Shown in pieces: positions 4,227 through 36,654 of a DNA stretch of 57,699 nucleotides. The stretch's first letter is position 1. Each line of letters opens with the position of its first letter. This stretch comes from Deltaproteobacteria bacterium. Its GTDB lineage: Bacteria > Desulfobacterota > Desulfobacteria > Desulfobacterales > Desulfobacteraceae. The notes below the pieces were generated by a model, which ran no database searches, was not told where the DNA came from, and was given only the letters and a program-made list of their open reading frames with translations. Both the position numbers and the translations under genes were made by a program. The DNA lies in the NCBI GenBank assembly GCA_027858995.1, contig JAQIBP010000009.1:1-57699 (forward strand). Reading direction: 5' to 3'.

Positions 4227-4331
4227 TCCTCGGAACAGACTTGTATGTCGGTGGTTAAAATTTTTTCCCGCCTTGTACTTGAACAAATTATCTGGTTTCC
4301 GGTCAGACACTATATAACAGAGGAACTTGAG

Positions 4332-5264: not shown

Positions 5265-5275
5265 GGAATCTTAGT

Positions 5276-5818: not shown

Positions 5819-5839
5819 TATGAAGGTATCAACTTTATA

Positions 5840-6355: not shown

Positions 6356-6945
6356 AATTAAGTAAAAAACATATTATATTTATCATAGTTGTTTTTTTTC
6401 TTATGATTGCAATAATCTATCGTATACTCAACCCATTTGTGCAGCAAGAAGTTAATACTCTTACTTTTACAGGAGAAAAAAAAAGTGTTAAAACAGACAA
6501 AGCTGAACATGCTATATTGCAGGCAGAAAAGGTTGAATCTCAAACTCTTGTTTCAAAATTTTTAAACAAACCAGAGGTATCTGCTAAGGTCTATAATGAT
6601 CTGTTTTCCACATATAAACCTCCAAATAAGCTTGCTAAAAAAAAGAAGGTTAATATTCCTGCAGACAGAGATATTCAAAACAGGCAAAAGTTAGATATCA
6701 AAAAAGACTCTTTACAGGAGATTAAAGAGTATATCACCTCATACAGGGTTTACGGGATATATAAAAGTGAAAATACAAAAGCTATTTTCCTGGCAAAAAA
6801 CAAGCTTGTGCTTGTTGCACAAACTGGCGACCGTCTTGACGGAAAGTATTTAATAGATGATATTCAAGATAATTATATAAAGATCAAAGCATTGGAATTC
6901 AATGAGACAATACGCCTTGACATGAGGGAGTTTAATAATGAATAG
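6352..6945 (+). CDS. GspC/PilP-like secretin-linking protein
   Basis: A 197-residue protein with an N-terminal membrane helix (about residues 7-25), a long polar linker and a C-terminal beta-rich domain (about 125-197) containing Y-R-V-Y-G-I-Y-K and later V-A-Q-T-G-D-R-L. This resembles the homology-region domain of GspC/PilP that contacts the secretin N-domains. It starts with GTG overlapping the PilO-like stop and overlaps the secretin gene by eight bases. The identification is by architecture and position. Confidence 0.6.
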   Translation: MKLSKKHIIFIIVVFFLMIAIIYRILNPFVQQEVNTLTFTGEKKSVKTDKAEHAILQAEKVESQTLVSKFLNKPEVSAKVYNDLFSTYKPPNKLAKKKKVNIPADRDIQNRQKLDIKKDSLQEIKEYITSYRVYGIYKSENTKAIFLAKNKLVLVAQTGDRLDGKYLIDDIQDNYIKIKALEFNETIRLDMREFNNE

Positions 6946-9100
6946 TCGGATTTTGTTCACAAATATTATTTTAATTTTTCTGTTTCTGTTTCAAGGGTGT
7001 GTTGCCGGAGATGGCGATGTAAGCAACTATGGGATCAAGGCTGAAAGATTTGCAAAAGAGAATAATTTCGATGCTGCTGTAGAGTATTATAATAAAGCTT
7101 ATAAAGAGAATCCTGATGATCTTGAATTAAAACTCAATCTTACACATGCAAAACAGAATGCATCCCTGCAGCATATGCGGAAAGCAGAGAGTCTTATCGA
7201 TAGAAAATACTTTAGAGAAGCCATAGAGGAACTTCAGTTGAGTATTGCCTTTTTTTCCAGTAATCACAGAGCTATAGAGCTTGTTGACAAGGTCAAGATG
7301 ATGAAAGAGGCATATTACTATACAAAAAAAGGACATAAGCAGATAAAAATCGGAAATTTTACAAATGCAAGGAAATCATTTCAAAGGGCTGTTGATCTTG
7401 ACCCTGACAATGAAGAGGCAAAAGTGGCTCTTGAGCAATTTAAAAAAAGAAGAGATGAGCTGCCTGAATACCGCCTTGATTTAAAATCCAATGCGCCCAT
7501 ATCATTGAAATTTAAACAAACCCCGGTATTGAATGTATTTGAAATTTTATCCAAACTTTCAGGGATTAATTTTATTTTTGATAAAGATATAAGACCCGGT
7601 AAAGTTACGCTCTTTATGACAGATGTGAAGTTTGACAGGTTTCTGGATGTTCTTTTAAAAACCAATGCTTTAAAAGCTAAGATGATTAACCGCAAAACCA
7701 TGCTGATTTATCCTGATACCCCTTCAAAGGCTAAAGAGTATGATGAGCTGTATGTTAAAACTTTTTATCTGTCATATTTAAAAGCCAAAAACGCTGTAAG
7801 TATTTTAACCAAGATTTTAAAAAGTAAAAATATTATTGCTAATGAAAAACTGAATTCGGTAACTATTCGGGGGCAAAAAGAGAATGTTGAAATGGCTGCA
7901 AAAATTATTGCTGCCAATGACAGGACTCCATCTGAAGTAATTTTAAATGTTGAAATTATGGAAGTATCCAGGACAAAAGAGAAAGATCTTGGTCTCTCCA
8001 TTTCTGATACAATCACTTTTGGTGTCAGTGAGACAAGTGACGGGATAAAATTTGACCCGGGTTTTGGGATACCAGGACAAGCAGCCTTTGCAGGAATGGC
8101 ATCTCTCAGCGATATAAGTAAGATCACAAGCAAGGAATTGTATCTCTCTTTGCCCACGGCAACACTGAAGCTGCTTAAAAAAGATGGGGATACAAAAATA
8201 CTTGCCAGGCCCCAGATAAGGGTGAGCAGTTCTGAAAAGGCATCTATTTTAATCGGTGAAAGGATACCCTTAAGATCAAATCGCAGAGTTCAAACCGATG
8301 GAACCGTAACCTATGATTTTCAATACACAGATGTGGGGGTGCAGCTTACAGTAGAACCTGTAATTAACATGTATGATCAGGTCACCTTAAAACTGGGTAT
8401 TGAAATAAGTGCTCTGGGTAATAATGTTGGAACACCGACCGATCCCCAGTTTGCTATTAAGACAAGAGCCACGAGTACTGTTTTGACAATTTATGATGGT
8501 GACAGTGTTATTATTGCCGGATTAATTGAAGACACTGAAAGATCAACAGTACAAAAAATCCCTCTGCTTGGGGAACTGCCTACTCTTGGAAAACTTTTTT
8601 CAACTGAAAACTCTGAAGTCATAAAAAATGATATACTAATGACAATAACTCCGGTCATTATAAGAACCCAGGATATTCCAGGGAAAAACCAGAACATTGC
8701 AGAATTCTGGTCGGGCAGTGAAAGACAAATTTCTCTGCAGGAACCAATGGAAGAAAAAATTATCAGAGAGACTGATTTCAATGATGCGCCCCATGAAGAT
8801 TATATAATGGTGGTTTCAGAAGATGAATTTCTTCCAAGTGATGAATATTTCAGTATACAGGTCTACTCTTCCAAAGATGAGGCAGCGGCAAAAGAAAATT
8901 CCAGAGAATTCAGAGAACTTGGATATAAAACCTGGATCAGACCGGTAGAGATAGAGGATAAGGGAACATTCCATCGTATTTTTGTGGGGCAGTATGAATC
9001 TTATCAAAAAGCCGAGAACAGGATTCAGGATATGCTGAAAAAGCAAATATTTCAAAAAGATATACATATAGTTGACAGAGCATATGTGTATGAAGAGTAA
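6938..9100 (+). CDS. gspD: outer-membrane secretin lipoprotein with TPR and SPOR domains
   Basis: A secretin of 720 residues forming the outer-membrane pore. Residues 1-21 are a lipoprotein signal with lipobox L-F-Q-G-C. Tetratricopeptide-like repeats follow (about 28-175), then an STN/secretin-N domain (about 190-240, N-V-F-E-I-L-S-K-L-S-G-I-N-F), an N1-like domain and the secretin beta domain (about 330-580, with V-P-L-L-G-E-L-P-type ending I-P-L-L-G-E-L-P-T-L-G-K-L-F). The last 85 residues resemble a SPOR domain, which in other proteins binds denuded peptidoglycan. TPR at the front and SPOR at the back are unusual for GspD. A GAGGGAG site precedes the start. Confidence 0.85.
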   Translation: MNSRILFTNIILIFLFLFQGCVAGDGDVSNYGIKAERFAKENNFDAAVEYYNKAYKENPDDLELKLNLTHAKQNASLQHMRKAESLIDRKYFREAIEELQLSIAFFSSNHRAIELVDKVKMMKEAYYYTKKGHKQIKIGNFTNARKSFQRAVDLDPDNEEAKVALEQFKKRRDELPEYRLDLKSNAPISLKFKQTPVLNVFEILSKLSGINFIFDKDIRPGKVTLFMTDVKFDRFLDVLLKTNALKAKMINRKTMLIYPDTPSKAKEYDELYVKTFYLSYLKAKNAVSILTKILKSKNIIANEKLNSVTIRGQKENVEMAAKIIAANDRTPSEVILNVEIMEVSRTKEKDLGLSISDTITFGVSETSDGIKFDPGFGIPGQAAFAGMASLSDISKITSKELYLSLPTATLKLLKKDGDTKILARPQIRVSSSEKASILIGERIPLRSNRRVQTDGTVTYDFQYTDVGVQLTVEPVINMYDQVTLKLGIEISALGNNVGTPTDPQFAIKTRATSTVLTIYDGDSVIIAGLIEDTERSTVQKIPLLGELPTLGKLFSTENSEVIKNDILMTITPVIIRTQDIPGKNQNIAEFWSGSERQISLQEPMEEKIIRETDFNDAPHEDYIMVVSEDEFLPSDEYFSIQVYSSKDEAAAKENSREFRELGYKTWIRPVEIEDKGTFHRIFVGQYESYQKAENRIQDMLKKQIFQKDIHIVDRAYVYEE

Positions 9101-9995: not shown

Positions 9996-10455
9996 AAAAG
10001 GATTTACATATCCGGCAGCACTGGCTATGATTATTATTGTCTCTGTCTCTTTAATGGTGGTTCAAAAGCAGTGGAGCACAATAGTGAAAAGGGATAAAGA
10101 GAAAGAGCTTTTTTTCAGGGCAGACCAGATTGTGCAGGCGATAGAGTCTTTTTATCACAGCTCTTCAAAAGGATCTCAACAATATCCAAGAAGGTTGAAA
10201 GTGCTTTTAAAAGATAGCAGATTCCTTAGTTTAAAGAGGCATTTGCGAAAAATATATAAGGATCCCATGACAGAGGATGGTAAGTGGGGAATCATATATG
10301 ATGGAAAGGGCGGTATCAAAGGTGTTTTTTCTAAAAGCCAGGCAGAACCAATTAAAACGGGTAATTTCCCGGAAATTTACAAATCCTTTGAAAATAAAAA
10401 AAAATATAATAACTGGAAATTTGTATATGAGCCGGAAAAGGAGGCACCGTCATGA
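9985..10455 (+). CDS. atypical minor pseudopilin lacking Glu+5
   Basis: A pseudopilin-like protein of 156 residues. The leader M-S-G-E-K-G is followed by F-T-Y-P-A-A-L-A-M and a hydrophobic helix, so the prepilin cleavage context is present but the Glu at +5 is replaced by Ala. In type II secretion, lack of Glu+5 is a trait of the tip subunit GspK, though this protein is shorter than GspK. The mature region again holds the D-P-M-T-E-D-G-x-W-G motif seen in pseudopilin 1. The start at 9985 overlaps the previous stop; an earlier ATG at 9970 would lengthen the leader by five residues. Confidence 0.75.
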   Translation: MSGEKGFTYPAALAMIIIVSVSLMVVQKQWSTIVKRDKEKELFFRADQIVQAIESFYHSSSKGSQQYPRRLKVLLKDSRFLSLKRHLRKIYKDPMTEDGKWGIIYDGKGGIKGVFSKSQAEPIKTGNFPEIYKSFENKKKYNNWKFVYEPEKEAPS

Positions 10456-10790
10456 AAAAAGCAGTAATTCTTATTTTAATTATATGTTGTTCATCTTTTG
10501 TGCATGCGTCTGATATTTCAGACAGTTTTACACAAAAGTATAACTCCCTCTTCCCTCTGGAAAACAGTTCTGTTGATTCAGATTATCTTTATGAGCAGAT
10601 TGCCCTTGGCAGTCAATATACAATTATACTGCTGGATCAACTCAATACTAATAATGACACTCTTAATGAAAAAGTTGACACTCTGAATGAAAAAGTTGAT
10701 ATTATGATTGAAAAATTCAGTATTCTTATTGAGCAGAACAGAAAAATTATTTATCTTCTTGAAAAGAGTAAAAAGGATTCTGATTCCTGA
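10452..10790 (+). CDS. small exported coiled-coil protein of unknown function
   Basis: A 112-residue protein with a signal peptide (residues 1-19, cleavage after V-H-A) and a C-terminal half built of heptad-like repeats, including two direct copies of L-N-E-K-V-D. It probably forms a periplasmic coiled coil. It overlaps the last pseudopilin gene by four bases, so it belongs to the secretion operon. No family was recognised; a periplasmic scaffold or substrate of the secretion machine is possible. Confidence 0.6.
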   Translation: MKKAVILILIICCSSFVHASDISDSFTQKYNSLFPLENSSVDSDYLYEQIALGSQYTIILLDQLNTNNDTLNEKVDTLNEKVDIMIEKFSILIEQNRKIIYLLEKSKKDSDS

Positions 10791-10814
10791 AAAGTCCGGA
10801 GATACTTTTTTTGT

Positions 10815-11624
10815 ATGGTGAAATATTTAATTATCAGTTTAATCGCTGGCTTGCTGGTTTATGGTAGATTTGTTGAGCCTGACATGGTTCAAATCAGAAC
10901 AATAGACATTAAAACTGATTTTATAAACAAAGCTTTAAAGGGCAGAAAAATTGTTCATCTTTCAGATCTGCATCTGTCAAAGTTTGGAAAAGCAGAAATC
11001 AAGATATTAAAAACCATTGATCAAATCAATCCTGATCTGATATTTTTAACCGGTGATTATATAAAGTGGAAAGGCGATATCAAGCCTGCTTTAAATTTTT
11101 TATCCCGTTTAAAGGCAAAACATGGTGTCTTTGCTGTAATGGGAGATTATGACTACTCCAATTCAAGAACCAGCTGTCTATTCTGTCATGAAAAAGGAAC
11201 AAAAGAATCCACAAAACAGCATAATATCATCATGTTGAGAAATTCTTCCTATAAAATTAATATCAATAATTATATAATAGAGATTGCCGGTTTGGATGAG
11301 GGATATGATGATTCAAGATTTTCTCAAGAGAATTATAAACTTGATAATAATTCTTTATTGCTGGTATTAAGCCACACTCCTCTAGCTTTTGATAAATTTT
11401 CAGACAGGGATAAAATTTTCATGTTTGCAGGTGACACCCATGGTGGTCAGGTAAAATTTCCTGTGTGGCTGTTTAAACTTCTGGGTTATAAAAAGAATGT
11501 AATGTATAATTATGGATTGTTTCACAAAGGAAATAAAACAATGTATGTAACAAGGGGTACTGGTACAAGCCATTTTAAGTTCAGATTTCTCTGCCCTCCG
11601 GAAATAGCAGTGTTTGAGTTCTAA
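10815..11624 (+). CDS. membrane-anchored calcineurin-like metallophosphoesterase with altered active site
   Basis: A 269-residue metallophosphoesterase with an N-terminal hydrophobic anchor (residues 3-17). Family blocks are visible: S-D-L-H-L (D51, H53), G-D-Y (D81), S-H-T-P (H187) and G-D-T-H-G-G-Q (H209). This set resembles the YaeI/LpxG-like branch. The block that is normally G-N-H-D/E reads G-D-Y-D (110-113), so the metal-bridging Asn is Asp and the catalytic-acid His is Tyr. Residues 120-130 add a C-x-x-C pair. It follows the small coiled-coil gene by 24 bases and is probably co-transcribed. The substrate is unknown. Confidence 0.75.
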   Translation: MVKYLIISLIAGLLVYGRFVEPDMVQIRTIDIKTDFINKALKGRKIVHLSDLHLSKFGKAEIKILKTIDQINPDLIFLTGDYIKWKGDIKPALNFLSRLKAKHGVFAVMGDYDYSNSRTSCLFCHEKGTKESTKQHNIIMLRNSSYKININNYIIEIAGLDEGYDDSRFSQENYKLDNNSLLLVLSHTPLAFDKFSDRDKIFMFAGDTHGGQVKFPVWLFKLLGYKKNVMYNYGLFHKGNKTMYVTRGTGTSHFKFRFLCPPEIAVFEF

Positions 11625-23441: not shown

Positions 23442-24887
23442 ATGTTACAAACAAAAAAAGATCCATCGTATATAGATCTTGATCTTAGTTTGAAATACAA
23501 GATTAAAGATATTGCCCTTGCAGAAGAAGGGCTTAAGGATATGCAGCTTTCAGAAAAGGAAATGCCTGGTTTAATGGCTATCAGGGAAAAATATGGTCAA
23601 AAAAAACCTTTTAAAGGTTTGCAAATCATGGGAAGTCTTCATATGACTATTCAAACAGCCATGCTCATTGATACCCTTTATGAACTTGGAGCTGATATCC
23701 GCTGGGCATCATGTAATATTTTTTCCACCCAGGATCATGCAGCAGCGGCAATTGTAAAAAAAGGTTCTGCCGCAGTTTTTGCCTGGAAAGGTGAAACCCT
23801 TGAAGAATTCTGGTGGTGTACTGAACAGGCACTGTTGTGGCCGGATGGTTCAGGCCCTGATCTTATTGTTGATGATGGAGGCGATGCAACCCTCTATGTT
23901 CATCAGGGGGTAAAAGTTGAAAAAGATCCCTCTCTGCTTGATATTAAACCCGGCAGCACAGATGAAAAATGCTTGATGGACAGAATGAGAGTAAGTCAGT
24001 ATGAAGATTCTGAAAAATGGACAAATATTGCAAAAAAAATCAGGGGGGTTTCAGAAGAGACAACAACCGGAGTTCATAGATTGTATCAGCTTGCTGAAAA
24101 AAAAGAGCTGCTTTTCCCTGCCATTAATGTCAATGATTCTGTAACTAAATCCAAATTTGACAATCTTTATGGGTGTCGTGAATCACTTGCAGATGGAATC
24201 AAGAGAGCAACTGATGTCATGCTTGCCGGTAAAACAATTGTTGTGGCAGGTTATGGTGATGTGGGTAAAGGTTGTGCTGCATCCATGCGAGGATATGGAG
24301 CCATTGTATGGGTTACTGAAATTGATCCTATCTGTGCACTGCAGGCAGCCATGGAAGGCTTTAAAGTTGTGACAATGGAAGAGGCTGCTCCCCAGGGGGA
24401 TATCTTTGTAACTGCCACTGGTAATTATCATGTTATTACTGGCAAACATATTGATGAAATGAAAGATGAATCCATAATCTGCAATATTGGACATTTTGAT
24501 AATGAGATCGAAATGAGCCATCTTGACAGCAACCCAAAAGCTGTAAAAACAAATATCAAACCACAGGTGGACAAATGGACATTGGAGTCCGGCCGGTCTG
24601 TCATTGTTCTTGCAGAGGGAAGACTTGTAAATCTTGGCTGTGCCACAGGACATCCAAGCTTTGTAATGAGCAACAGCTTTTCCAACCAGACCATGGCACA
24701 GATCAAACTTTCTAAGGAAAATCTTGAGAACAAAGTCTACACACTTCCCAAGGAACTTGATGAAGAGGTGGCAAGATTCCATCTGAAAAATCTCTCTGTA
24801 AACCTGACAAAGATGACCCAGGAACAGTCTGATTACCTTGGAATTCCAGTTAATGGTCCCTATAAAGCTGATATTTACAGATATTAA
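23442..24887 (+). CDS. ahcY: adenosylhomocysteinase AhcY
   Basis: S-adenosyl-L-homocysteine hydrolase splits SAH to adenosine and homocysteine with tightly bound NAD. The 481-residue product shows S-L-H-M-T-I-Q-T-A (substrate site), D-D-G-G-D, the Rossmann motif [11 protein letters not shown] (near residue 266), N-I-G-H-F-D-N-E-I, and the C-terminal K-A-D-I-Y-R-Y, in which Lys and Tyr reach the NAD of the neighbouring subunit. AAGGAG precedes the ATG. With metK and the adenosine-kinase-like protein it makes the core of the methyl cycle. Confidence 0.96.
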
Positions 24888-25232
24888 TAAATTTGCAGGG
24901 ATTTTAAATATATAGTGCCTGCGAGTTTAATTTTGTGTACATCTCTTAATATGAATTTTTATTTTTTATTTCAGTTACTTATGGTTTGCTTGACTGTTTT
25001 GGGAGTTTCAGGGTTCAAGATTTTGAACTTTTATCAGGATTAATGATGAAAAAAATTATAGAGATTTAAATTCTATACAGACATAAAAAGAAAATCAAGG
25101 ATAATTATCTAATTAAATAAGGATGTTATAAATTAAATCAAATATGTTTTATGACCATGGCATGCTAATTGCTATAACTTAACTATAATAAACATAACAA
25201 AGATTAATTTTTTTATCTTTTTTTCCTTTTTC
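24888..25232. other. gene-free region after ahcY
   Basis: About 345 AT-rich bases between ahcY and the terminator of the minus-strand block. A weak GCAGG/CCTGC hairpin soon after the ahcY stop could end that transcript. No plausible gene, conserved RNA or repeat was found in the rest. Confidence 0.5.
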
Positions 25233-25267
25233 AAAAAAGGCTGTCCTAAACCAAGGCAGCCTTTTTT
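25233..25267. terminator. strong bidirectional intrinsic terminator
   Basis: AAAAAAGGCTG (25233-25243) pairs perfectly with CAGCCTTTTTT (25257-25267), giving a G/C core flanked by A and T runs on both sides. It lies 36 bases after the end of the selenoprotein gene on the minus strand and can also stop readthrough from ahcY on the plus strand. It is the only convincing terminator of the whole minus-strand catabolic block. Confidence 0.9.
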
Positions 25268-25303
25268 GGTTTTAATGGAAGGATGGATATAAGAAAACTT
25301 CTA

Positions 25304-25522
25304 TTACTGTTTGATAAGTTTTATGATTTCATCATTATCAGGAAAGTGTTTTGTTTGATGTTTGGAATAAATAAGGTTCCCATCCACAACAATATCATAA
25401 ACACCTTTTGAACCAGGAATCACCTGTGCTGTAATACCCAGCTCATCTCTTATTTTTTCTGCCAGCCCGGCAGCCCTTGGTTCATAATTTCAAACAGAAC
25501 AGTAATTGATTTTAATTTCCAC
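25304..25522 (-). CDS. SelW/Rdx-family selenoprotein with in-frame TGA (Sec)
   Basis: A 72-residue thioredoxin-like protein of the SelW/SelT/SelH (Rdx) family, read through a TGA at 25490-25492 as selenocysteine. The N-terminus reads V-E-I-K-I-N-Y-C-S-V-U-N-Y-E-P-R-A-A-G-L, giving the redox motif C8-x-x-U11. After the TGA the frame stays open with the family pattern G-S-K-G-V-Y-D-I-V-V-D-G-N-L-I-Y-S-K and F-P-D-N-D-E-I. It starts with GTG behind AAGGAG (seven-base spacer). A compact hairpin follows the TGA. Function is probably thiol/selenol redox chemistry. Ordinary gene finding would split or miss it. It lies 55 bases after the aminotransferase gene, before the terminator. Confidence 0.9.
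25459..25473 (-). promoter_or_regulatory. candidate bacterial SECIS hairpin
   Basis: On the mRNA, CTGCC (25473-25469) pairs with GGCAG (25463-25459) around the loop GGGCT. The stem starts 17 bases after the TGA and the loop is 22-26 bases after it, within the distance required for SelB-dependent readthrough. The loop carries G residues as in known bacterial SECIS elements. Confidence 0.65.
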
Positions 25523-25577
25523 TGTATTTCTCCTTTTGAATGAATATTGCTGTATTCTTAGCAATATCCCACCTGGT

Positions 25578-26831
25578 TTATTGATATTTATCCTTTATAA
25601 AGTGTAAAGATTCATCAATTGCCTTTAAGGAGAGTTCTAACTCTTCCTTAGTGTGCCTGTAACTTATATAGGCATGGTGAAATGGAGTAAAAAAGAAGCC
25701 TTTGCGGATAAGCTGGGTGTAAAAATCCGTTCGTTTGCCTTTATATGCACCTGTGTCATCTTTTTTAAAGGTAATGTAAAACATTGGGGCAACGCCTGTA
25801 AGTTCTGCTCCAACATTATGTTTATCAATGGTTTGCTGGATTTTTTCCATGAACCATTTACCCTTTTCCCAGATGTTTTCAAGGACATTGTCCCTTTCCA
25901 TAATTTCAATGGTTTTAAGAGCAGCTATAAATGCTTCACTGTTAGGAAAAAATGTGGAAGAGATAAAAAGTTTGCTTTCAGCTGCCATCATTACATCTTT
26001 TTTCCCAGTTACAACAGAGATTGGATATCCATTGCCCATGGCCTTTCCAAGCACAGTAAGGTCAGGTGTTACTCCATACAGCTCCTGGGCACCGCCCATG
26101 GCAAGTCTGAAACAGGTACGAATTTCATCATAAATCAGTACAACACCGTATTTATCAGCAATTTCTCTTGCCCCTTCAAGGAAACCGGGTTCAGGGATCT
26201 CCATTTTTTTATGGTTGGGATGTCCAAAGGGTGTCATGATAATAGCAGCAGTATCATCGCCATGTTCAGCCATTAATTCTTCAAGCTGATCAAGTTTGTT
26301 ATATTGAAATTCATAAACATCTTCATAAAATTTTTTGGGGATTCCACCTTTCATTTCAATACACCAGTCATGCCAGCCATGATAGCCGCACCGCATAACC
26401 TTTAATTTTTCTGTATGGGCTCTTGCAATACGAATGGCTGCAGTGGTGGCATCTGATCCGGTTTTAAGGAAGATACTCATTTCAGAGCAGGGTACAATTT
26501 GAGTAAGCTTTTTTGCAAGTTGATTTTGAAACTTCTGGGTTAGAGTAAAGCAAAAACCTTTGTCTCTAATCTGTTTATAAACAGCTTCATCCACTTCATC
26601 TTCACGGTATCCCAGGATAATGGGGCCATATCCGCAGAGAAAATCAATAAATTCATTGCCGTCAACATCAACAAGTTTTGCACCTTTGCCGGTATCAAGA
26701 AAAATCGGGTATTCCCCATTAATAAAATCCCCTGGTTTTCTTGCGCCAAGCACTCCTCCCGGGATCAGTGTAATTGCCTCTTCATACAATGCCAGGCTTT
26801 TGGAAATATTGAGTTTTGCTGTTTCTTTCAT
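25578..26831 (-). CDS. class III PLP-dependent aminotransferase (GSA-aminomutase-like)
   Basis: A 417-residue class III aminotransferase, closest in pattern to the glutamate-1-semialdehyde aminomutase-like group. The PLP lysine is K263 in L-G-K-A-M-G-N-G-Y-P; the cofactor Asp is D235 in L-I-Y-D-E-I-R-T; the phosphate site is T-G-S-D-A-T. It is unlikely to be the haem enzyme HemL, because it sits in a catabolic block next to a saccharopine-dehydrogenase-like gene. That pairing suggests transfer or removal of an amino group from an unusual amino acid. AAGGAG precedes the start. Substrate unknown. Confidence 0.82.
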   Translation of the reverse strand: MKETAKLNISKSLALYEEAITLIPGGVLGARKPGDFINGEYPIFLDTGKGAKLVDVDGNEFIDFLCGYGPIILGYREDEVDEAVYKQIRDKGFCFTLTQKFQNQLAKKLTQIVPCSEMSIFLKTGSDATTAAIRIARAHTEKLKVMRCGYHGWHDWCIEMKGGIPKKFYEDVYEFQYNKLDQLEELMAEHGDDTAAIIMTPFGHPNHKKMEIPEPGFLEGAREIADKYGVVLIYDEIRTCFRLAMGGAQELYGVTPDLTVLGKAMGNGYPISVVTGKKDVMMAAESKLFISSTFFPNSEAFIAALKTIEIMERDNVLENIWEKGKWFMEKIQQTIDKHNVGAELTGVAPMFYITFKKDDTGAYKGKRTDFYTQLIRKGFFFTPFHHAYISYRHTKEELELSLKAIDESLHFIKDKYQ

Positions 26832-28121: not shown

Positions 28122-28931
28122 TTAAAAATTATATCTGCTCAAAACAGCTTCAAGTACACTGCCCCCAATGGCGCGGGCCTTTTCCGAGATTGTGGAGCAG
28201 TATTCTACTTTTCCTCTTGGGTCTATGTCACCAATTTTAAGCCTGATGTCAACTTCTGTGTTATTTCTTATTTGACCTCTTAAAACACCGTCAATTCCGG
28301 CAATAACATCATTACCATTAACATTGGCCATTACCTGGCCTTTTTTGACAACTACACCTATATCAAGATCAGATCTGAATGTTCCAGTGCTTGGGGATCT
28401 TAAAACCCTTTCATGGGTAAAACCATTGGTGGAGCCTGGAATGCCTGTGTTTGGCTCAGGACAGCCCTTTAAAATAATTCTTCCAAGGTTATGTCCCCTG
28501 TTTGTCTCAACTGCAATGTGGACATTTTTGCCTGCTTCAAAACCTGGGCCAAGTCCGATAGTAAGGGGGGCTTCAGACATGCTGGTCCCAAGATTTTTTT
28601 TGGCAATAATTGCATCCACCACCACGTCGGGATTGAGAGTTTTTATACATTTCCAATCAGGATCAACAATCACAGGAATTTTATTTTCATCCCAACTTTG
28701 ATGAATCTGGTCACAGGATGTAATTTTTATTGCCTCAACCCCTTCCACAATTATTTTGCCATCGTGGACAGCTTCGCAGAATGAGACCTGCCGTCTCACA
28801 GCAAGGGGATTATCTATCTCCATCATAAAGATATGTTTAATGTTGGATTTAAAAAGGCGGCATGCAATTCCTGATGCAAGTTCTCCTGCTCCTTTCACAC
28901 CAATTATAAGTTCATTTAGTTTTAAGTTCAT
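28122..28931 (-). CDS. yqeB: YqeB-type selenium-dependent molybdenum hydroxylase maturation protein
   Basis: A 269-residue protein of the EF2563/YqeB family, which in many genomes travels with SelD and Mo hydroxylases that carry a labile selenium ligand. Visible features are the N-terminal G-V-K-G-A-G-E-L-A-S-G-I-A (Rossmann-like), the central G-L-G-P-G-F-E-A-G and E-T-N-R-G-H-N-L-G-R, and the C-terminal D-I-D-P-R-G. It directly follows two Mo hydroxylase operons on the same strand, suggesting that at least one is selenium-dependent. The start at 28931 has no strong ribosome site. Partner genes (yqeC, selD) are not in the window. Confidence 0.82.
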   Translation of the reverse strand: MNLKLNELIIGVKGAGELASGIACRLFKSNIKHIFMMEIDNPLAVRRQVSFCEAVHDGKIIVEGVEAIKITSCDQIHQSWDENKIPVIVDPDWKCIKTLNPDVVVDAIIAKKNLGTSMSEAPLTIGLGPGFEAGKNVHIAVETNRGHNLGRIILKGCPEPNTGIPGSTNGFTHERVLRSPSTGTFRSDLDIGVVVKKGQVMANVNGNDVIAGIDGVLRGQIRNNTEVDIRLKIGDIDPRGKVEYCSTISEKARAIGGSVLEAVLSRYNF

Positions 28932-28955
28932 TTGTTTAAATTTTCAGTTTCTAAT

Positions 28956-28989
28956 AAAAGTTGCACTATCCTTTAAAAGTTACACTATC
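28956..28989. repeat. 15-bp direct repeat upstream of yqeB
   Basis: AAAAGTTGCACTATC (28956-28970) recurs as AAAAGTTACACTATC (28975-28989) with one change and a 19-base period. It lies 25 to 60 bases upstream of yqeB in the only sizeable gap (157 bases) of the lower part of the block, so an internal promoter or regulator site is possible. Confidence 0.45.
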
Positions 28990-29088
28990 TTCCAGTGGAA
29001 CGGGTTAAACAATTTTTTATATTATAATTAATATCCAGTTGATCAAGGACAAAACCTGGAGTCAAATAGAGCTTATGCCCAAAAGCTA

Positions 29089-31377
29089 TCATTTGGCAGT
29101 ATCCTGTTGTTTTTTGTTTTTAATTGCCGTAAGAATTTTATCCGGAGTCAGAGGAAAAGAATCCATATGAACACCAATGGCATTGCTTACAGCAGCGCTG
29201 TAGCCCTGGGCTGCTGACATGGCAATGGACATGCCGGCTTCTTTAGCACCATAAGGTCCTTTTGGCTCAATTGATTCAACAATTATGTTATTGATTTTGG
29301 GCATGTCGCAGGCAAGGGGCAGTTTATAATCAAGCATGGTTGGATTTACACATCTGCCTTCATGCCACTCATGGTACTCTGTGAGCATTCCTCCCTGGCC
29401 TCCCATGGCAATGGAGCCTTCAAACTGACCTTCAAGAACAAGTGGGTTCAAGGCTTTGCCAACATCCTGGGAAGCAGTGACTTCAAGCACTTCAACCTCT
29501 CCTGTATCAGGGTCAACCTTGACTTCAACAATGGTGGTCCCAAAAGAGAAGGCTTCACACATCTGACCGTAGGGATTGGATACCCACTCTCGTTTCATGT
29601 CAACTTTTGGCCAGTAACCGCCTTCGGCATTAACAGAATTAAAGTTTAAAAGACTTATTCGAACCACTTTTTTAATGGGAATTGATTTTTCAGGATCATC
29701 TTTTACAAAGATAAGACGGTTTTCTGCCTTAAGCGTATCAGGTTCAACTTTTAATACTTTTGCTGCCACATCAAACAGCTTTTTCTTGCAGTTTGAAGCA
29801 GCATTTTTAACAGCCTGACCGCCCACAAAGGTTGATACCTGGGAGTATGAACCAGGGTCAGAAGAGGTGGTCTCAGTATCTGCTGAAACAAGATGAATAT
29901 CTTCTGGAAGCAGTCCTAATTCCTGTGCTGCAATTTGGACCACCATATTATCATTGCCCTGACCATTGTCTACGACGCCTGTCATGACAGTGGCTTCACC
30001 ATCTTCATTGAATTTGATAAAACTCTGGGATCCGCCTCTTATACCCATGGGAAAACCTGTCTGAACAGAATTGGTTCCTATTCCAATACCATGAAATGGC
30101 GGCAGCTTGCCCCATTTTTCCTTGAACCCTGATTTCTCAACTGCCTTGTGAATGGTTTCATCCATGGCACATGAGCTGACAAGGGATTTAGTATTGGTAT
30201 ATTCACCTGGCTGTCTTGAGTTTCTCAATCTCATCTCCACGGGATCAATGCCAAGATGCTCTGCAATCATGTCAAGCTGGGTGTCAAGACCGCATGCAAA
30301 GCCACGACCGTGAACCCTTATCATTCCACGGATGGGTTTGTTGGTGTAGACTCTGTATCCGTTGTAGCGGACACTTTCCATCCTGTATGCCTGTTCCATG
30401 GAAAGAAAGGGTACAGTTGTGGCAATGGGACCTGTGGAAGAGTAAGCCCCACCATCCATATAGCATGTGGTATCCCTTGCAAGGACGCGTCCTTCTTTAT
30501 CCACACCTGTTTTATGGGTGGTGATCATGGCATGTCCCTGGCGGGTAGCAATAGTGTTTTCTTCCCTTGTAAATATTATTTTCACAGGGGCGCTGGTTTT
30601 TTTTGCAAGCAGGGCGCAGATATAATCAGCAGGGCAGATTTCAGATCTTCCGCCAAATGCACCGCCAATGGCAATTTTTTTAATTTTGACTTTATGAAGA
30701 GGGAGTTTAAAAGAGTTGGAAAGGGGTTTGGATTTCATGTGTGGCCCGCCATTAGGGCACCACACTTCAAGACACTCATCTTCATCAAACCTTGCAACCA
30801 CAGCATAGGGTTCTGCCTGAAAATATGACTCTTCCGGTGCTGTAAAAGTGTCTTCCCTTATATAGTGAGCCTTTTTAAAATTTTCATCCACTTCACCAGT
30901 ATCAATGTTTACATGGATATTGATATTATTTGGAAAATCTTCATGGATTAACTCACTATCTGATGCCATGGCATCCATGGGTTCAAATACAGCAGGCAGC
31001 TGTTCATATTCCACTTGAATAAGATCAAGAGCTTTTAGAGCAGTGTCTTCATCAACAGCAGCAACACCTGCTACCTCATCTCCTATGTATCTTGCCTTGT
31101 CAGTCTGGATAAACTGCTGATCACGGGTATAACCGAAAACTCCCCATTTTACGCCTTCAGTATCCTTGCCTGTAACAACAGCTTTTACTCCGGGCAGATT
31201 TTCAGCTTTTGATGTGTCAATACTGAGGATTCGGGCATGGGCATAGGGACTTCTTTTAATTTTTCCCACAAGCATGCCATGGAGCTTGATGTCAGCTGAG
31301 TATCTTACTTTTCCCATGACTTTGGCCCTGGAATCAACTCTTGGCATTCTTTTTCCGATAATATTGTAATCAGACAT
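29089..31377 (-). CDS. molybdenum hydroxylase large (Mo-pterin) subunit, set A
   Basis: A 762-residue xanthine-oxidase-family catalytic subunit carrying the molybdopterin cofactor. It has the N-terminal hammerhead domain (G-K-V-R-Y-S-A-D-I), G-G-A-F-G-G-R near residue 250, and the C-terminal P-Y-G-A-K-E-A-G with the base-catalyst Glu. It forms a three-gene set with the 2Fe-2S subunit (31381) and the FAD subunit (31887), which carries the extra cysteine loop of 4-hydroxybenzoyl-CoA reductase. It therefore either hydroxylates an aromatic or N-heterocyclic ring or reductively removes a hydroxyl from an aryl-CoA. Context favours an aryl-acid pathway. Confidence 0.88.
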   Translation of the reverse strand: MSDYNIIGKRMPRVDSRAKVMGKVRYSADIKLHGMLVGKIKRSPYAHARILSIDTSKAENLPGVKAVVTGKDTEGVKWGVFGYTRDQQFIQTDKARYIGDEVAGVAAVDEDTALKALDLIQVEYEQLPAVFEPMDAMASDSELIHEDFPNNINIHVNIDTGEVDENFKKAHYIREDTFTAPEESYFQAEPYAVVARFDEDECLEVWCPNGGPHMKSKPLSNSFKLPLHKVKIKKIAIGGAFGGRSEICPADYICALLAKKTSAPVKIIFTREENTIATRQGHAMITTHKTGVDKEGRVLARDTTCYMDGGAYSSTGPIATTVPFLSMEQAYRMESVRYNGYRVYTNKPIRGMIRVHGRGFACGLDTQLDMIAEHLGIDPVEMRLRNSRQPGEYTNTKSLVSSCAMDETIHKAVEKSGFKEKWGKLPPFHGIGIGTNSVQTGFPMGIRGGSQSFIKFNEDGEATVMTGVVDNGQGNDNMVVQIAAQELGLLPEDIHLVSADTETTSSDPGSYSQVSTFVGGQAVKNAASNCKKKLFDVAAKVLKVEPDTLKAENRLIFVKDDPEKSIPIKKVVRISLLNFNSVNAEGGYWPKVDMKREWVSNPYGQMCEAFSFGTTIVEVKVDPDTGEVEVLEVTASQDVGKALNPLVLEGQFEGSIAMGGQGGMLTEYHEWHEGRCVNPTMLDYKLPLACDMPKINNIIVESIEPKGPYGAKEAGMSIAMSAAQGYSAAVSNAIGVHMDSFPLTPDKILTAIKNKKQQDTAK

Positions 31378-31380
31378 AAT

Positions 31381-31878
31381 TTACTCCTTTGTTTGACAGT
31401 CTGGACAGGATTTTTCAGGTTTGCCGGCGTGGGCAACAGCTTCAACAATTTTTGAGTATCCAGTGCATCTGCAGATATTGCCGGAAAGAGCTTGGCGTAT
31501 TGTTGTATCATCAGGGTTAAGGGTTTCACTGAGCAGGGCATCGGCAGACATTAGCATGCCGGGAGTACAGATTCCGCACTGGACTGCACCATGATCAATA
31601 AAGGACTGCTGGAGATTTGATAATTCATCTCCGTTTGCAAGACCTTCCACGGTTTTTATCTTTGTGCCCTGTGCTTCCATGGCAAGTGTCAGGCATGATC
31701 TGACAGGTTTGCCATCCATCTGAATTGTACATGATCCGCAGATGCCTTCTGAGCAGCTTTCCTTTGATCCTGTTAGATCAAGTTCATCCCGTAATACTTC
31801 GAGAAGTGTGTCGTTGGGCTGTACCAGGAGTGCCTGATCTTTTCCATTTATATTTAAGGTAATTTGTAATTTTTCCAT
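31381..31878 (-). CDS. molybdenum hydroxylase 2Fe-2S subunit, set A
   Basis: A small iron-sulfur subunit of 165 residues. The plant-ferredoxin-type cluster is bound by C-S-E-G-I-C-G-S-C and a later Cys; the second cluster by C-G-I-C and C-R-C-T-G-Y. Both blocks are complete. A C-terminal C-P-D-C is an unusual addition. The start at 31878 (M-E-K-L-Q) has GAGG six bases before it; an ATG at 31890 overlaps the FAD subunit stop. It moves electrons between the Mo centre and FAD. Confidence 0.92.
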   Translation of the reverse strand: MEKLQITLNINGKDQALLVQPNDTLLEVLRDELDLTGSKESCSEGICGSCTIQMDGKPVRSCLTLAMEAQGTKIKTVEGLANGDELSNLQQSFIDHGAVQCGICTPGMLMSADALLSETLNPDDTTIRQALSGNICRCTGYSKIVEAVAHAGKPEKSCPDCQTKE

Positions 31879-31886
31879 TTTTGACC

Positions 31887-32867
31887 TCATATCTCTTTAA
31901 GTGCCTGTAAAACCATCTCTTCAACCATGGCACATCTGTATTCAAGTGTGGAGCCAACATTGTGAACTGCAAAAGCGGCAGCGCTGCTCATGGCAGCGGT
32001 AGCTGCATCTTTGAAGGTAGCTTGATCGTTCATGTCTTTTCCTTTTAATTTAGATGCTGCATTTGCAAGCAGAAGGGGTGCTCTGCCCATGGCACCCACA
32101 ACAATGCGTGCCCGGACTATTTTATCTGAATTATCAGATTCTAAAAGAACCCCGGCACAAACTATTGGATAATCAATGGCAGAACGGTATGCAAGGCGTT
32201 TATAAGCACTTTCCCCATTTGTTTTTGGTATGCTGATTTCAGTCAAAAGCTCTTGAGATTCCATGGCAAAGGGCATGATTCCGTCTGTGGTGTAAAAGTT
32301 GGCAAGCTCAACCTCTCTTTTATTATCTTTGCCTGCAAGGGTTAAACCTGCACCAAGTGCCATAAGAGCTGTGGCTCCATCAGACTGGCATGTGGAATTG
32401 CACCTGTCTGCCTCTTCACGGGCATAACAGATTTTACCACCGTCTTTATGACATGCCTGTCTGCCTGAACGGTAAAAATCCGACTGGTTATAGTGGTGGC
32501 ATCTGTTATTCTGGAGGATATTACCGCCAATAGTTCCCTTATAATGCTGGATGGAAACCGCTCCGATTTTTTCACATGCCTGGAAAAGAGCCCTGGCATG
32601 TTTTTGAACAGGTTTGGAAGCAATAATGTCAGCTATGGGTGTCCTTGTACCAATTTTTATACAATCAGATTCATCTTTAATATAAGAGAGTGAATCCAAG
32701 GCTTTAAGGCTTATAATATACTTAGGTGCCAGAAGCCCTTTTTTCATCCTCACAAGAAGATCAGTTCCACCTGCAAGAATTTTTGCTTCATCTTTATGCT
32801 CTGCAAGCATATCAAGAGTCTGATCAAGATTTTGCGGGTTTAAATATTCAAATCCTGGTAATCGCAC
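31887..32867 (-). CDS. FAD subunit with extra 4Fe-4S loop, 4-hydroxybenzoyl-CoA-reductase type, set A
   Basis: A 326-residue FAD-binding subunit (CO dehydrogenase M family) with L-A-G-G-T-D-L-L and G-T-I-G-G-N-I-L for FAD. After the second motif there is an insertion of about 40 residues holding Cys123, 139, 147, 156 and 160. Such an insertion, binding a 4Fe-4S cluster, is the mark of HcrB of 4-hydroxybenzoyl-CoA reductase, a Mo enzyme that runs reductively. Its presence suggests that set A uses low-potential electrons or a CoA thioester. The GTG start at 32867 has AAAGGAGA well placed. Confidence 0.87.
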   Translation of the reverse strand: MRLPGFEYLNPQNLDQTLDMLAEHKDEAKILAGGTDLLVRMKKGLLAPKYIISLKALDSLSYIKDESDCIKIGTRTPIADIIASKPVQKHARALFQACEKIGAVSIQHYKGTIGGNILQNNRCHHYNQSDFYRSGRQACHKDGGKICYAREEADRCNSTCQSDGATALMALGAGLTLAGKDNKREVELANFYTTDGIMPFAMESQELLTEISIPKTNGESAYKRLAYRSAIDYPIVCAGVLLESDNSDKIVRARIVVGAMGRAPLLLANAASKLKGKDMNDQATFKDAATAAMSSAAAFAVHNVGSTLEYRCAMVEEMVLQALKEI

Positions 32868-32968
32868 GTGTATCTCCTTTTTTTTATGAAAACCATTTTA
32901 ATTATAATTTATCGATTTTCATTTTACGTTATAGCAACTTGGTTAAAGACCAAGACTGCCCGGGGCAG

Positions 32969-35272
32969 TTAATCTCCTTTTTTTTCTTTTAATGCAGCCA
33001 AAACTTTTTCAGGGGTAATGGGAAGATCCTTAATTCTGACTCCAACAGCATCATAGATCGCGTTTGCAACAGCAGGAGCTGTGGGAACACAACCTGGTTC
33101 TCCTATGCCTTTTGCACCGAATGGACCATCTTTATCAATGGTTTCAATTACAGGTGCTTTTATTTTAACAGCATCTTTGGCAGTGAACAGTTTATAGTCC
33201 CGAAAATTGGCATTCATGTTTTTACCGTTTTGATGCACAACCTCTTCGGTAAGAGCATAGCCAAGTCCCATGACTACACCGCCATAGACCTGTCCTTCAA
33301 GAAGCAGAGGATTTATGGCACGCCCAACATCATGGGCAGCAACATATTCAAGCACTTCGACCTTGCCTGTCTCTTCATCTACTTTGACTTTCACTCCATG
33401 TGCACCAAAAGAGTACGTCATTGACATATTACCTTTAAGATCCTTTCCCATGTTTCTATTATCAGGATCATAAAAGTTCTCTGCCATTAGCATTGTGCCA
33501 TTGGGTGAAAAATGGGCTTTTCTTAAAAGTTTTCCAATGGGCATGCTTTTTTCAGGATCACCCGGGAAAAAGACATTTCTATCCTTGAATTTAATATCTT
33601 TGGCAGGTACATCAAGAATTTTGGATGCAAATTCCTGGATTTTTTTCTTAACTTTTTTTGCAGCACCAAGGGCGGCATTTCCTGCAACAAAGGTACTGCG
33701 GCTTGCATGGGCGCCAACATCCCAGGGGCAGACATCAGTATCTGAATGCACTACATTGATATCTTCAGCAAGAAGTCCCAGCTCTTCTGCAACAATCTGG
33801 GCAGTAATATTGTCAAGCCCCTGACCCATGTCAGTACCGCCGGTAAAGATATCCACCTTGCCGTAGTCATCCATTTTTAGAATAGCGCCGCATCCGTCAG
33901 AACCGTAAATCCTGGCGCCGCCTCCCACATGAATTAAAGAAGCAATACCTGTCCCGACACCTTTTTCACTATTATTGTCAAACTTGAGCTCTTCCTTTAC
34001 TGCATCAATACACTCTTCAAGACCGCAGGATGTTATTTTCAAACCCTGGGGTGTCTCATCTCCACTTTGGTTTTTATTGATTTTTCTGAATTCAATACGA
34101 TCCATGCCGGCTTTCTCAGCCAATATGTCCATGCTGCTTTCAATGGCAAAGGTTGCCTGGGGGTTTCCATAGCCTCTCATGGCCTGGGAGTAGGTATTGT
34201 TTGTGTATACACATTTGGCATTATATTTTACATTTTCAACTTTATAAAGAGAGCTTATGGGCATCAACATGACAGAAGGCGTAGTAGCTCCCCATGAAGT
34301 ATGAGCACCGTTATCCAGCACCATTCTCATATCCCTGAATGTAAGTCTGCCGTTTTTGTCACACCCCTGTTTTATATAGATGACAGTGGGCTGTCTTGTG
34401 GAAGTTGCATTGAATTCTTCCACACGGTCAAACATAATTTTTACAGGTTTTTTGCATTTGTGTGCCAGAAGGATTGCTATATGTTCATAGGCATAGGTAT
34501 CGAGTTTGCTTCCAAAACCACCGCCGATAATAGGTTTAATAACCCGGGCACGTTTGTTTTCAAGCCCCATTGCTTTTAAGGATTCAAGAAAATCCTTCTG
34601 GGCAAGGGAAGGAATCTGCGTGTTGGAGTATATGGTCAAGTTGTCTGCTGCATCAAACAGGGCAATAGCGCCACTTGTTCCCATGCAGCAGTGTGTGACC
34701 CATGTTGTGGTAAATTTATCTTCTACAACAAAAGCTGACTCTTTTTCAGCTTTTTCCACATCGCCGTAATGAATGTTCCATGGCATTTTAAGTACATTTG
34801 ATTTAAGGTGTTCATGCACCAGTGGAGAATCTTTTTCCATGGCTTTTTCAGGATCAAAAATGCCTTCAAGCTCTTCATACTCAATTTCAATAAGATCCAG
34901 GGCTTTTTTTGCAATATCCAGGCTTATGGCTGCCACTGCAGCTACCTCATCTCTAAAAGAACTGACTCTGCCCTTTTTTATTGGAGGATTGTCCTTGATA
35001 AATCCCATTTTCATTTTTTTTGGCACATCTTCGCCTGTGAGAACTGCGTGCACGCCAGCCAGGGCTTTTGCTTTTGAGGTATCAATTTTAACAATATTTG
35101 CATTGGCAAATTTACTGTATAAAATTTTTCCGTACAGCATTCCAGGCAGTTTGATATCCTGGATATATTCTGCTCTTCCCATGGCTTTCTGCGCTGCATC
35201 CAATTTGGGAATCGGTTTTCCAACCACACTTAATTCCCTGTCCTGGTTAGGTGTGACCTCTATGTTATCCAT
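32969..35272 (-). CDS. molybdenum hydroxylase large (Mo-pterin) subunit, set B
   Basis: A 767-residue catalytic subunit of the xanthine oxidase family: hammerhead domain (G-R-A-E-Y-I-Q-D-I-K), G-G-G-F-G-S-K near residue 249, R-G-Y-G-N-P substrate-loop motif, and F-G-A-K-G-I-G-E-P-G with the catalytic Glu. The sequence differs clearly from set A, so this is a second enzyme rather than a recent duplicate. It overlaps the 2Fe-2S gene by eight bases. A likely job is hydroxylation of a heteroaromatic carbon next to nitrogen, such as C2 of the indole ring in indoleacetate. Confidence 0.88.
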   Translation of the reverse strand: MDNIEVTPNQDRELSVVGKPIPKLDAAQKAMGRAEYIQDIKLPGMLYGKILYSKFANANIVKIDTSKAKALAGVHAVLTGEDVPKKMKMGFIKDNPPIKKGRVSSFRDEVAAVAAISLDIAKKALDLIEIEYEELEGIFDPEKAMEKDSPLVHEHLKSNVLKMPWNIHYGDVEKAEKESAFVVEDKFTTTWVTHCCMGTSGAIALFDAADNLTIYSNTQIPSLAQKDFLESLKAMGLENKRARVIKPIIGGGFGSKLDTYAYEHIAILLAHKCKKPVKIMFDRVEEFNATSTRQPTVIYIKQGCDKNGRLTFRDMRMVLDNGAHTSWGATTPSVMLMPISSLYKVENVKYNAKCVYTNNTYSQAMRGYGNPQATFAIESSMDILAEKAGMDRIEFRKINKNQSGDETPQGLKITSCGLEECIDAVKEELKFDNNSEKGVGTGIASLIHVGGGARIYGSDGCGAILKMDDYGKVDIFTGGTDMGQGLDNITAQIVAEELGLLAEDINVVHSDTDVCPWDVGAHASRSTFVAGNAALGAAKKVKKKIQEFASKILDVPAKDIKFKDRNVFFPGDPEKSMPIGKLLRKAHFSPNGTMLMAENFYDPDNRNMGKDLKGNMSMTYSFGAHGVKVKVDEETGKVEVLEYVAAHDVGRAINPLLLEGQVYGGVVMGLGYALTEEVVHQNGKNMNANFRDYKLFTAKDAVKIKAPVIETIDKDGPFGAKGIGEPGCVPTAPAVANAIYDAVGVRIKDLPITPEKVLAALKEKKGD

Positions 35273-35759
35273 TTTTTCCTCCCTTATCTTCTACTGCAAG
35301 CTCTTTGGCAGCTTCTACTGATTCAAAAATCTGAATATATCCTGTACATCTGCATATATTGCCGGCAAGGGCATGTTTTATCTCTTCTCTGTCTGCATCA
35401 GGGTTTTCATCCAACAGTGCTTTGGAAGACATTATCATTCCAGGAGAGCAGAATCCGCATTGTATGCCGCCATTGTCCACAAAAGATTGTTGCAGCGGAT
35501 GCAGGGTTCCATCTGTTGAAGCTAACCCTTCTATGGTTTCAACAATTTTGTCATCAATATCAATTGCAAGATAGAGACATGAATTTACAGCAAGTTTATC
35601 TACAATCACAGTGCATGCACCACACTCTCCATTACCGCAGCCTTCTTTTGTTCCAATCAGTCCCATCTCTTCGCGTAAAAGATATGACAGAGTCCAGTGA
35701 TCTTTAATCTCGTAAGAGATTTTATCACCATTTAATATAAAAGATATTTTTGTTGCCAT
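35265..35759 (-). CDS. molybdenum hydroxylase 2Fe-2S subunit, set B
   Basis: A 164-residue small iron-sulfur subunit. The first cluster motif is C-G-N-G-E-C-G-A-C plus a later Cys, and the second C-G-F-C with C-R-C-T-G-Y. All eight ligands are present. It overlaps the set B large subunit gene by eight bases and lies 13 bases after the FAD subunit gene, giving the order FAD, 2Fe-2S, Mo, the same as in set A. Confidence 0.92.
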   Translation of the reverse strand: MATKISFILNGDKISYEIKDHWTLSYLLREEMGLIGTKEGCGNGECGACTVIVDKLAVNSCLYLAIDIDDKIVETIEGLASTDGTLHPLQQSFVDNGGIQCGFCSPGMIMSSKALLDENPDADREEIKHALAGNICRCTGYIQIFESVEAAKELAVEDKGGKNG

Positions 35760-35772
35760 GGTCTATTTCTCC

Positions 35773-36654
35773 TTAAGACTGTTTTTTTATTATATCAAGA
35801 CATTTAAGACCCATCCTTCTTACATGGACTTTTATCATCTCTTTTCTGTGCCAGGCCTTACCTCTGACGCTGTCTCTTACCTTTGATTCATCAGCTGCAA
35901 TCTGACCTGCCTTGACAAGGATTTCTTCATTGATTTTCTGCCCCACAAGAGATTTTTCTGCCTCAAATGCTCTCATGGGAGTGGGAGCTGCGACTCCAAG
36001 AACAATCCTTGCCTTTGTACAGGTTTTTTGGTCTGTATCAAGCGTTAAAAGAACTCCAATACCAATAAGGGGCAGCTCCATGGCAGCTCTTCTGCCAAAT
36101 TTAATATAAGCACTTCCTGTATTGGCTTCCTGGGGTGGAATAGTTATTTTTTTAAGAATTTCACCTGGTTTTAAAACAGTTACATAGGGTTTGATAAACA
36201 GATCCTTGACCTCAACAGATCTCTCTCCATCAGGACCATGTAAAAGGGCCACACCGTCAAGGGCAATCATGGGGACAGCACCATCAGCAGATGGTACAGC
36301 ATTAATAAGATTACCGCCGATAGTACCCACATTTCTCACCTGCAGAGAACCAATATTGGAAACAGCATCATAAATGATGGGATACCTGTTTTGAATCATT
36401 AAAGATTTTTCAAGAGTAGCATGGGTGACAAGAGCCCCTATGGAAAGCTCTTTTGTCGCTTCATTTTTATGAAGGTCACTTAACTCTTTGATTTTTTTAA
36501 GGGAAATCAAAAAGTCAGGCTCCATCCATCCTTCCTTAAGCTTGACAATGACATCTGTTCCCCCTGCAACAAATTTTGAAGTCTCGCTGTGCTGACCGTA
36601 AAGGGATATGGCATCCTCAACACTTTCAGGTGACAGGTATTTAAATTCCTTCAT
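35773..36654 (-). CDS. molybdenum hydroxylase FAD subunit, set B
   Basis: A 293-residue FAD-binding subunit of normal length, with V-A-G-G-T-D-V-I and N-V-G-T-I-G-G-N-L for FAD binding. It lacks the cysteine-rich insertion of the set A homologue. It lies 32 bases after the CoA-ligase gene on the same strand, so it is probably co-transcribed with the ligase. Confidence 0.9.
   Translation of the reverse strand: MKEFKYLSPESVEDAISLYGQHSETSKFVAGGTDVIVKLKEGWMEPDFLISLKKIKELSDLHKNEATKELSIGALVTHATLEKSLMIQNRYPIIYDAVSNIGSLQVRNVGTIGGNLINAVPSADGAVPMIALDGVALLHGPDGERSVEVKDLFIKPYVTVLKPGEILKKITIPPQEANTGSAYIKFGRRAAMELPLIGIGVLLTLDTDQKTCTKARIVLGVAAPTPMRAFEAEKSLVGQKINEEILVKAGQIAADESKVRDSVRGKAWHRKEMIKVHVRRMGLKCLDIIKKQS

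Follow-up and report, generated by a model that had tools for sequence, protein, structure and literature searches.

A selW gene with an in-frame UGA codon predicted to specify selenocysteine in a member of the Desulfobacteraceae

The selW locus and its surroundings

The window (the whole stretch of DNA analysed here; 57 699 nt of contig JAQIBP010000009.1, assembly GCA_027858995.1, from a marine sulfate-reducing deltaproteobacterium of the family Desulfobacteraceae) contains a short selW reading frame on its minus strand. The frame starts with GTG at 25522, runs through nine codons to a TGA at 25490–25492 (codon 11) and continues for sixty-one codons to a TAA at 25304–25306. The features of the locus and of its flanks are as follows.

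25304–25522, minus strand: selW, coding for a predicted 72-residue SelW/Rdx selenoprotein, GTG start and TAA stop (translation, PF10262 and TIGR02174 matches, 49 distinct relatives, purifying selection 3' of the TGA)
25490–25492, minus strand: UGA codon 11, with a predicted selenocysteine reading (C8-S-V-U11; TGA in all 50 distinct sequences, aligned with the second Cys of the 2fa8 CxxC)
25530–25534, minus strand: ribosome-binding site AGGAG, 7 nt 5' of the GTG (sequence)
25459–25473, minus strand: SECIS hairpin CUGCC-GGGCU-GGCAG within the coding sequence, loop at 25464–25468 (fold, frozen synonymous codons, pair changes, four-rule model)
25232–25268, minus strand: intrinsic terminator-like hairpin with a U-run, 3' of selW (fold −20.4 kcal/mol, z −4.98)
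25578–26831, minus strand: class-III aminotransferase gene lying 55 nt 5' of selW, context (PF00202)
28122–28931, minus strand: yqeB, selenium-dependent molybdenum cofactor biosynthesis protein, context (TIGR03309, 345.1 bits, cut-off 220)
23442–24887, plus strand: S-adenosylhomocysteine (SAH) hydrolase gene, convergent with selW, context (PF05221)

An earlier note, made from the letters of the window, had proposed a complete 72-residue SelW/Rdx protein with a CxxU motif if this TGA is read as selenocysteine, preceded by a good ribosome site and followed by a strong terminator. The translation yields such a protein and carries no disruption other than the TGA; the protein scored above the cut-offs of Pfam Rdx PF10262 (residues 2–71, 65.9 bits, cut-off 22.6) and of NCBIfam TIGR02174 CXXU_selWTH (SelT/SelW/SelH; 55.6 bits, cut-off 34.2). 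With the narrower NCBIfam model NF041051 SelTWH_Campy it reached 84.8 bits, slightly below the cut-off of 88, and was therefore not filed there. PF10262 matched once in the whole genome, at selW itself. Both flanking signals were likewise found, the terminator by folding; a simple terminator scan of the selW region returned 0 terminators and missed the hairpin at 25232–25268, probably because its stem has an unpaired base.

For comparison, the readthrough protein was searched in 86 genomes of the same family and gave selW matches in 49 of them. Exactly one in-frame TGA was carried by 49 of the 51 match rows; the remaining two are partial and end short of codon 11, one being interrupted by a run of N and the other beginning at base 3 of its contig. 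A named genome collection contributed 11 loci: three Desulfobacula MAGs, the isolate Desulfocicer vacuolatum DSM 3385 and seven other MAGs (four named Desulfobacterales, Deltaproteobacteria or Desulfobacteraceae and three named Calditrichota or 'bacterium'). The selW coding sequences of the three Desulfobacula loci are identical to those in family genomes of the window's genus, so that the window, too, probably belongs to a species of Desulfobacula. Pooling of both sources gave 50 distinct coding sequences, the window and 49 relatives, among which the distant sequences L098, L100–L102 and L113–L115 were retained. Left out were L099 and L103 (partial, short of codon 11), L104 (missed by tblastn, with an earlier match of E 4.3e-4 that has one TGA) and the duplicates L055, L056, L058, L059, L060, L061, L067, L070 and L089. 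The start codon, read in every sequence but L115, is ATG in 48 of the 50 and GTG in the window alone. Most relatives have, as judged by eye, a purine-rich site resembling AGGAG 5' of the selW start.

Upstream of selW in the window lies a block made up of two molybdenum hydroxylase subunit sets, yqeB, a saccharopine-dehydrogenase-like gene and the class-III aminotransferase gene. The earlier note had taken selW to be the end of this block and the whole to be a selenium locus. The block and its yqeB assignment stand; the link of selW to it is positional, and it is not a conserved unit. Neighbours were compared over loci spanning up to 10 kb upstream and up to 8 kb downstream of selW, using a simple ORF caller with a 70-residue minimum rather than annotation; since contig ends cut many of the loci, the counts are lower bounds. 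An aminotransferase gene occurs within 5 kb upstream in four of the 50 loci and is directly adjacent to selW in the window only, and yqeB lies upstream in three. The SAH hydrolase gene, downstream in 16 loci, is the neighbour most often shared, followed by a SAM synthetase gene (15 loci).

An alternative, which is very unlikely, is that selW is a functional member of a selenium-dependent molybdenum hydroxylase operon and takes part in maturing that enzyme. In the window it is encoded on the same strand and starts 55 nt after the aminotransferase gene that itself follows yqeB and the saccharopine-dehydrogenase-like gene; a search of the minus strand from 25750 to selW found no sigma-70-like site; and in three further loci (L062, L065 and L072) at least the aminotransferase gene of the block is again upstream on the same strand. 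In those three loci, however, other genes intervene, of which one or more run in the opposite direction, and yqeB precedes selW in so few loci (3/50, a lower bound) that a conserved yqeB–selW operon was rejected. In 29 of the 50 loci the first ORF upstream is encoded on the other strand, so that selW presumably has its own promoter there, and the commonest shared neighbour lies on the 3' side. It is very unlikely that selW moved beside the hydroxylase genes of the yqeB block in this lineage and now works with them, its selenol assisting in the loading or protection of the cofactor selenium. selW is thus probably a small unit of its own that in this genome happens to adjoin the yqeB block, and not a member of a conserved operon with yqeB.

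In six of the 50 loci (L064, L066, L068, L082, L084 and L090) a conserved protein of 432–434 residues with an N-terminal hydrophobic stretch is encoded directly behind selW; it starts at the selW end, in some cases overlapping the selW stop, and the two copies scanned had no Pfam match over cut-off. It was considered as an obligate partner of SelW and rejected, being present in 24 of the 86 genomes, beside selW in 7 of those 24, and giving no match in the genome studied here.

Elsewhere in the window, a c-di-GMP-I riboswitch was found at 777–854 on the minus strand (52.7 bits, gathering score 35), just upstream of a 170-residue ORF at 242–754 on the same strand; it was the single match when the window was compared with Rfam at gathering scores, and nothing was returned at selW. 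On the plus strand, 1245–9100 carries type II secretion genes or pilus-like ones (T2SSF, T2SSE and a secretin). The two hydroxylase subunit sets adjoin each other (MoCoBD, 2Fe–2S and FAD subunits; 28122–36654 including yqeB, minus strand) and resemble 4-hydroxybenzoyl-CoA reductase and xanthine dehydrogenase, scoring below the equivalog cut-offs of both. Further readthrough frames were sought among those that have a single TGA and overlap little with other ORFs; a second candidate at 10452–11624, with its TGA at 10788, was rejected, as it reads as two separate genes, for a small protein without a Pfam match and for a phosphoesterase.

Selenocysteine machinery and the SECIS hairpin

The genome searched comprises 3.98 Mb at 97.1% completeness. 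All four of the selenocysteine genes named in the earlier note are present over cut-off: selA at C168 (601.2 bits), selB at C37 (350.2 bits), selD at C151 (366.3 bits) and the tRNA-Sec gene selC at C149 (75.6 bits with RF01852; anticodon TCA according to ARAGORN). One in-frame TGA is carried by selD itself, by FdhA and by two of the four FlpD matches of the same genome. Among the 86 family genomes selB was over cut-off in 76; at E ≤ 1e-40 the count was 81, which includes matches spanning approximately the first 270 of 581 positions with an EF-Tu-like score. As selW was found in 49 of these genomes against 76 for selB, SelW is optional where the machinery is common.

The hairpin begins 16 nt 3' of the UGA, its loop lies 21 nt from it and its folding energy is −8.0 kcal/mol; a stem-loop at a suitable distance after the TGA, as the earlier note had it, is therefore present. 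The bSECIS model (PMC13188914) specifies a loop of 3–9 nt on a stem of 4–16 bp, a G in the first two loop positions, a UGA-to-loop distance of 16–37 nt and a minimum free energy of −7.5 or lower. When these four rules were applied by hand, the window hairpin agreed with all of them (loop 5 nt, stem 5 bp, GG, 21 nt, −8.0 kcal/mol). Its folding energy is ordinary when compared with shuffled sequences (z −0.47), and stability by itself gives no support.

It was the comparison of relatives that distinguished the hairpin. Synonymous variation was compared over the 19 codons that have four or more synonyms and a majority residue in at least 30 sequences, and the five lowest entropies fell on codons 17–21, which make up nearly the whole hairpin. 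These codons encode a conserved peptide, AAGLA, in which the three Ala codons are each fixed differently: GCT in 45 of 50 sequences, GCC in 46 of the 46 with Ala and GCA in 41 of the 47 with Ala. Because each of the three keeps a different codon, neither the peptide nor codon bias can explain the freezing. When a six-pair stem was scored over the alignment, 256 of 300 cells held standard pairs, against 55–195 in six slid controls. The outermost pair (columns 18–34) is standard in only nine of the 50 sequences, so the stem was taken as five pairs. Two-sided changes occur at three of the six pairs, and no more than five distant sequences (L088, L097, L098, L101 and L102) supply them. The case for a SECIS element is accordingly one of codon and pair comparison and not of folding energy, and as comparative sequence evidence it is strong.

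These observations bear on the possibility that a near-cognate tRNA reads the UGA, independently of selenocysteine, and that the hairpin is nothing but conserved coding sequence. This is highly improbable: the position of the hairpin within the conserved AAGLA codons and its ordinary folding energy would fit such a reading, but the three Ala codons are held beyond what the peptide or a general codon bias would ask for, the five-pair stem is retained, although with few compensatory changes, and the genome has the full selenocysteine machinery.

Of the 50 sequences, 41 have the loop GGUCU, which resembles that of E. coli fdhF, and GGGCU is found in the window and its nearest relative L105 only. 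For the E. coli-type element the bases U17, G23 and U24 have been named (PMC8659212). Compared with that element the window loop keeps the G, and the counterpart of U24 is a G in the window and in L105; folding placed no bulged U in the 5 bp stem of the window. Among the other elements of this genome, that of FdhA has a GGUCU loop and the one predicted for SelD a GGGCU loop; the loops of the two FlpD folds differ from both and consist of three bases. Since the predicted selD element also has GGGCU, the SelB of this genome probably accepts this loop.

Conservation of codon 11 and of the downstream frame

Codon 11 is TGA in all 50 distinct sequences and a Cys codon in none, and codon 8 is Cys in all 50. 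The earlier note had held the frame to be open on both sides of the TGA, and it had named close relatives that stop at this codon without keeping the frame behind it as evidence to the contrary. In the window the translation is open throughout, and in every one of the 50 sequences the frame continues past the TGA, reaching its stop after 70–82 residues, while the other two frames 3' of the TGA are stop-free in eight and in none of the 50, respectively. Selection on the part 3' of the TGA was assessed by ungapped pairwise comparison of 43 of the 50 sequences (L080, L100–L102 and L113–L115 being set aside for gaps or distance); pN was smaller than pS in 902 of 903 pairs, which points to selection at the protein level. 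Between the window and its nearest relative L105, pN is 0.147 and pS is 0.387 over this part. Relatives thus do not stop at this codon; both the frame and the selection on it continue beyond.

That selW is a pseudogene, a former CxxC SelW in which TGC or TGT changed by chance to TGA, can hardly be credited: a single base does separate TGA from the Cys codons and the patchy presence of selW (49/86 family genomes) suggests that it can be lost, but the TGA is fixed over many genera without a single Cys codon in its place, protein-level selection persists 3' of it and the window copy is otherwise undisrupted.

A draw of 395 genomes from across the phylum gave matches in 56, with a TGA somewhere in 52 of the 57 rows (one of them also with a TAG). 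Because the other five rows, all weak, are stop-free and could represent Cys forms, SelW across the wider phylum is mostly, but not wholly, TGA-bearing. In one phylum genome (G409:C134, 8328–8540 and 8895–9113) two SelW-like matches are neighbours, one with a TGA and one stop-free (E 4.7e-4), possibly a Sec form beside a Cys form. An apparent 342-residue SelW fusion in genome G031 was rejected as the product of a run of N in the assembly.

The predicted protein and known SelW systems

A structural model of SelW was predicted by AlphaFold from an alignment of 27 of the 50 distinct sequences and had a mean pLDDT of 92.1. The CxxU motif, C8-S-V-U11, sits at the end of the strand formed by residues 3–8 in this model; positions 8 and 11 are invariant in the 27 aligned sequences and in all 50. 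In a Foldseek search with the model, SelW-family structures ranked first (2fa8, TM 0.91; mouse SelW 2npb, TM 0.70). The 23 matches at E ≤ 0.001 are chains from nine entries, eight of which are either hits of the sequence search for the SelW family or bear the name SelW-related, MIEN1 or SelW; thioredoxins come later and are weaker, with E values of 0.006 and up. The sequence itself matches 2fa8 with E 1.2e-6, the second Cys of the 2fa8 CxxC aligning with codon 11. The window protein is confidently predicted, on this model, to adopt the thioredoxin-like SelW fold.

Taken together, 25304–25522 on the minus strand is almost certainly a functional selW gene, probably forming its own unit, in which the UGA is decoded as selenocysteine through SelB and the SECIS to give a 72-residue redox protein of the SelW/Rdx family. 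A ribosome would initiate at the GTG at 25522; at the UGA (25490–25492) SelB, loaded with Sec-tRNA-Sec and anchored at the SECIS hairpin (25473–25459) on the same mRNA, would insert selenocysteine; and translation would then proceed to the TAA. The product would be a thioredoxin-like SelW/Rdx protein of 72 residues with the redox pair Cys8-x-x-Sec11. What the sequence establishes is the frame with its conservation, the hairpin and the selenocysteine machinery of the genome, and from these we infer the insertion of selenocysteine into SelW in this organism. The sequence tests that were run, among them the two refuting conditions named in the earlier note (a genome without Sec machinery, and relatives that stop at the codon), neither of which applies, support the core of the earlier interpretation, a SelW/Rdx selenoprotein with a CxxU motif whose in-frame TGA is read through; the selenium itself is predicted. 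In the SelW family the CxxU pair is a redox centre, and the most likely role of the window protein would be that of a small thiol/selenol oxidoreductase cycling via a Cys–Sec selenenylsulfide.

Bacterial SelW-like selenoproteins have been described from the Sargasso Sea, where the CxxU motif was reported, and from GOS sets (PMC1088965, PMC2398784, PMC1794560, PMC1242214). Among the deltaproteobacteria they are listed, with others, for Desulfotalea psychrophila and Geobacter sulfurreducens (PMC1794560), and SelW has been predicted in G. sulfurreducens and in C. jejuni (PMC1242214). According to PMC1794560, organisms that use selenocysteine have very few or no Cys homologues of SelW-like proteins, in line with the TGA in 50 of 50 sequences here. 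The function of SelW has been termed unclear, the CxxU motif being taken to suggest a redox function and an interaction with glutathione being cited (PMC1088965). Desulfobacterium autotrophicum HRM2, a marine sulfate reducer of the Desulfobacteraceae, has selA–selD and at least 31 Sec-containing proteins; the main text of the paper describing it does not contain the word SelW (PMC2702500). A literature search returned no paper recognisable by its title as treating SelW in Desulfobacula, and SelW is absent from the main text of PMC8318568.

The description of this gene as a hidden selenoprotein, given in the earlier note, holds in one respect: SelW genes are of a kind that annotation often misses, as reported for the Epsilonproteobacteria (PMC4607533), and the window provides a clean example of such a small gene. 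It does not hold for the family, which was catalogued in 2005–2006 (PMC1088965, PMC1794560), and the window selW is an ordinary further member of a family known for about two decades. Its value is in the testable set that it belongs to, 50 distinct SelW genes, mostly from one family of sulfate reducers, all with the TGA and with a SECIS readable from nearly frozen codons. The presence of selW in 49 of 86 genomes marks the Desulfobacteraceae as regular users of a protein whose bacterial role was called unclear (PMC1088965).

The window selW shares with the known bacterial SelW-like selenoproteins the family, the CxxU motif and a bacterial SECIS 3' of the UGA. A close parallel in kind is C. jejuni SelW (CJnc60), a small unannotated ORF for which Ribo-seq and proteomics support full-length translation through the UGA (PMC11955535). 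The C. jejuni protein has 80–81 residues, whereas the window protein has 72 and falls below the NF041051 cut-off. The solved structures of the SelW family, 2fa8 (Agrobacterium), 3dex, 2oka, 2obk, 2p0g, mouse SelW 2npb and MIEN1 2ljk, have a fold like that of the window model; in the alignments 2fa8 and 2ljk have Cys at the position for which the window gene carries its predicted selenocysteine codon.
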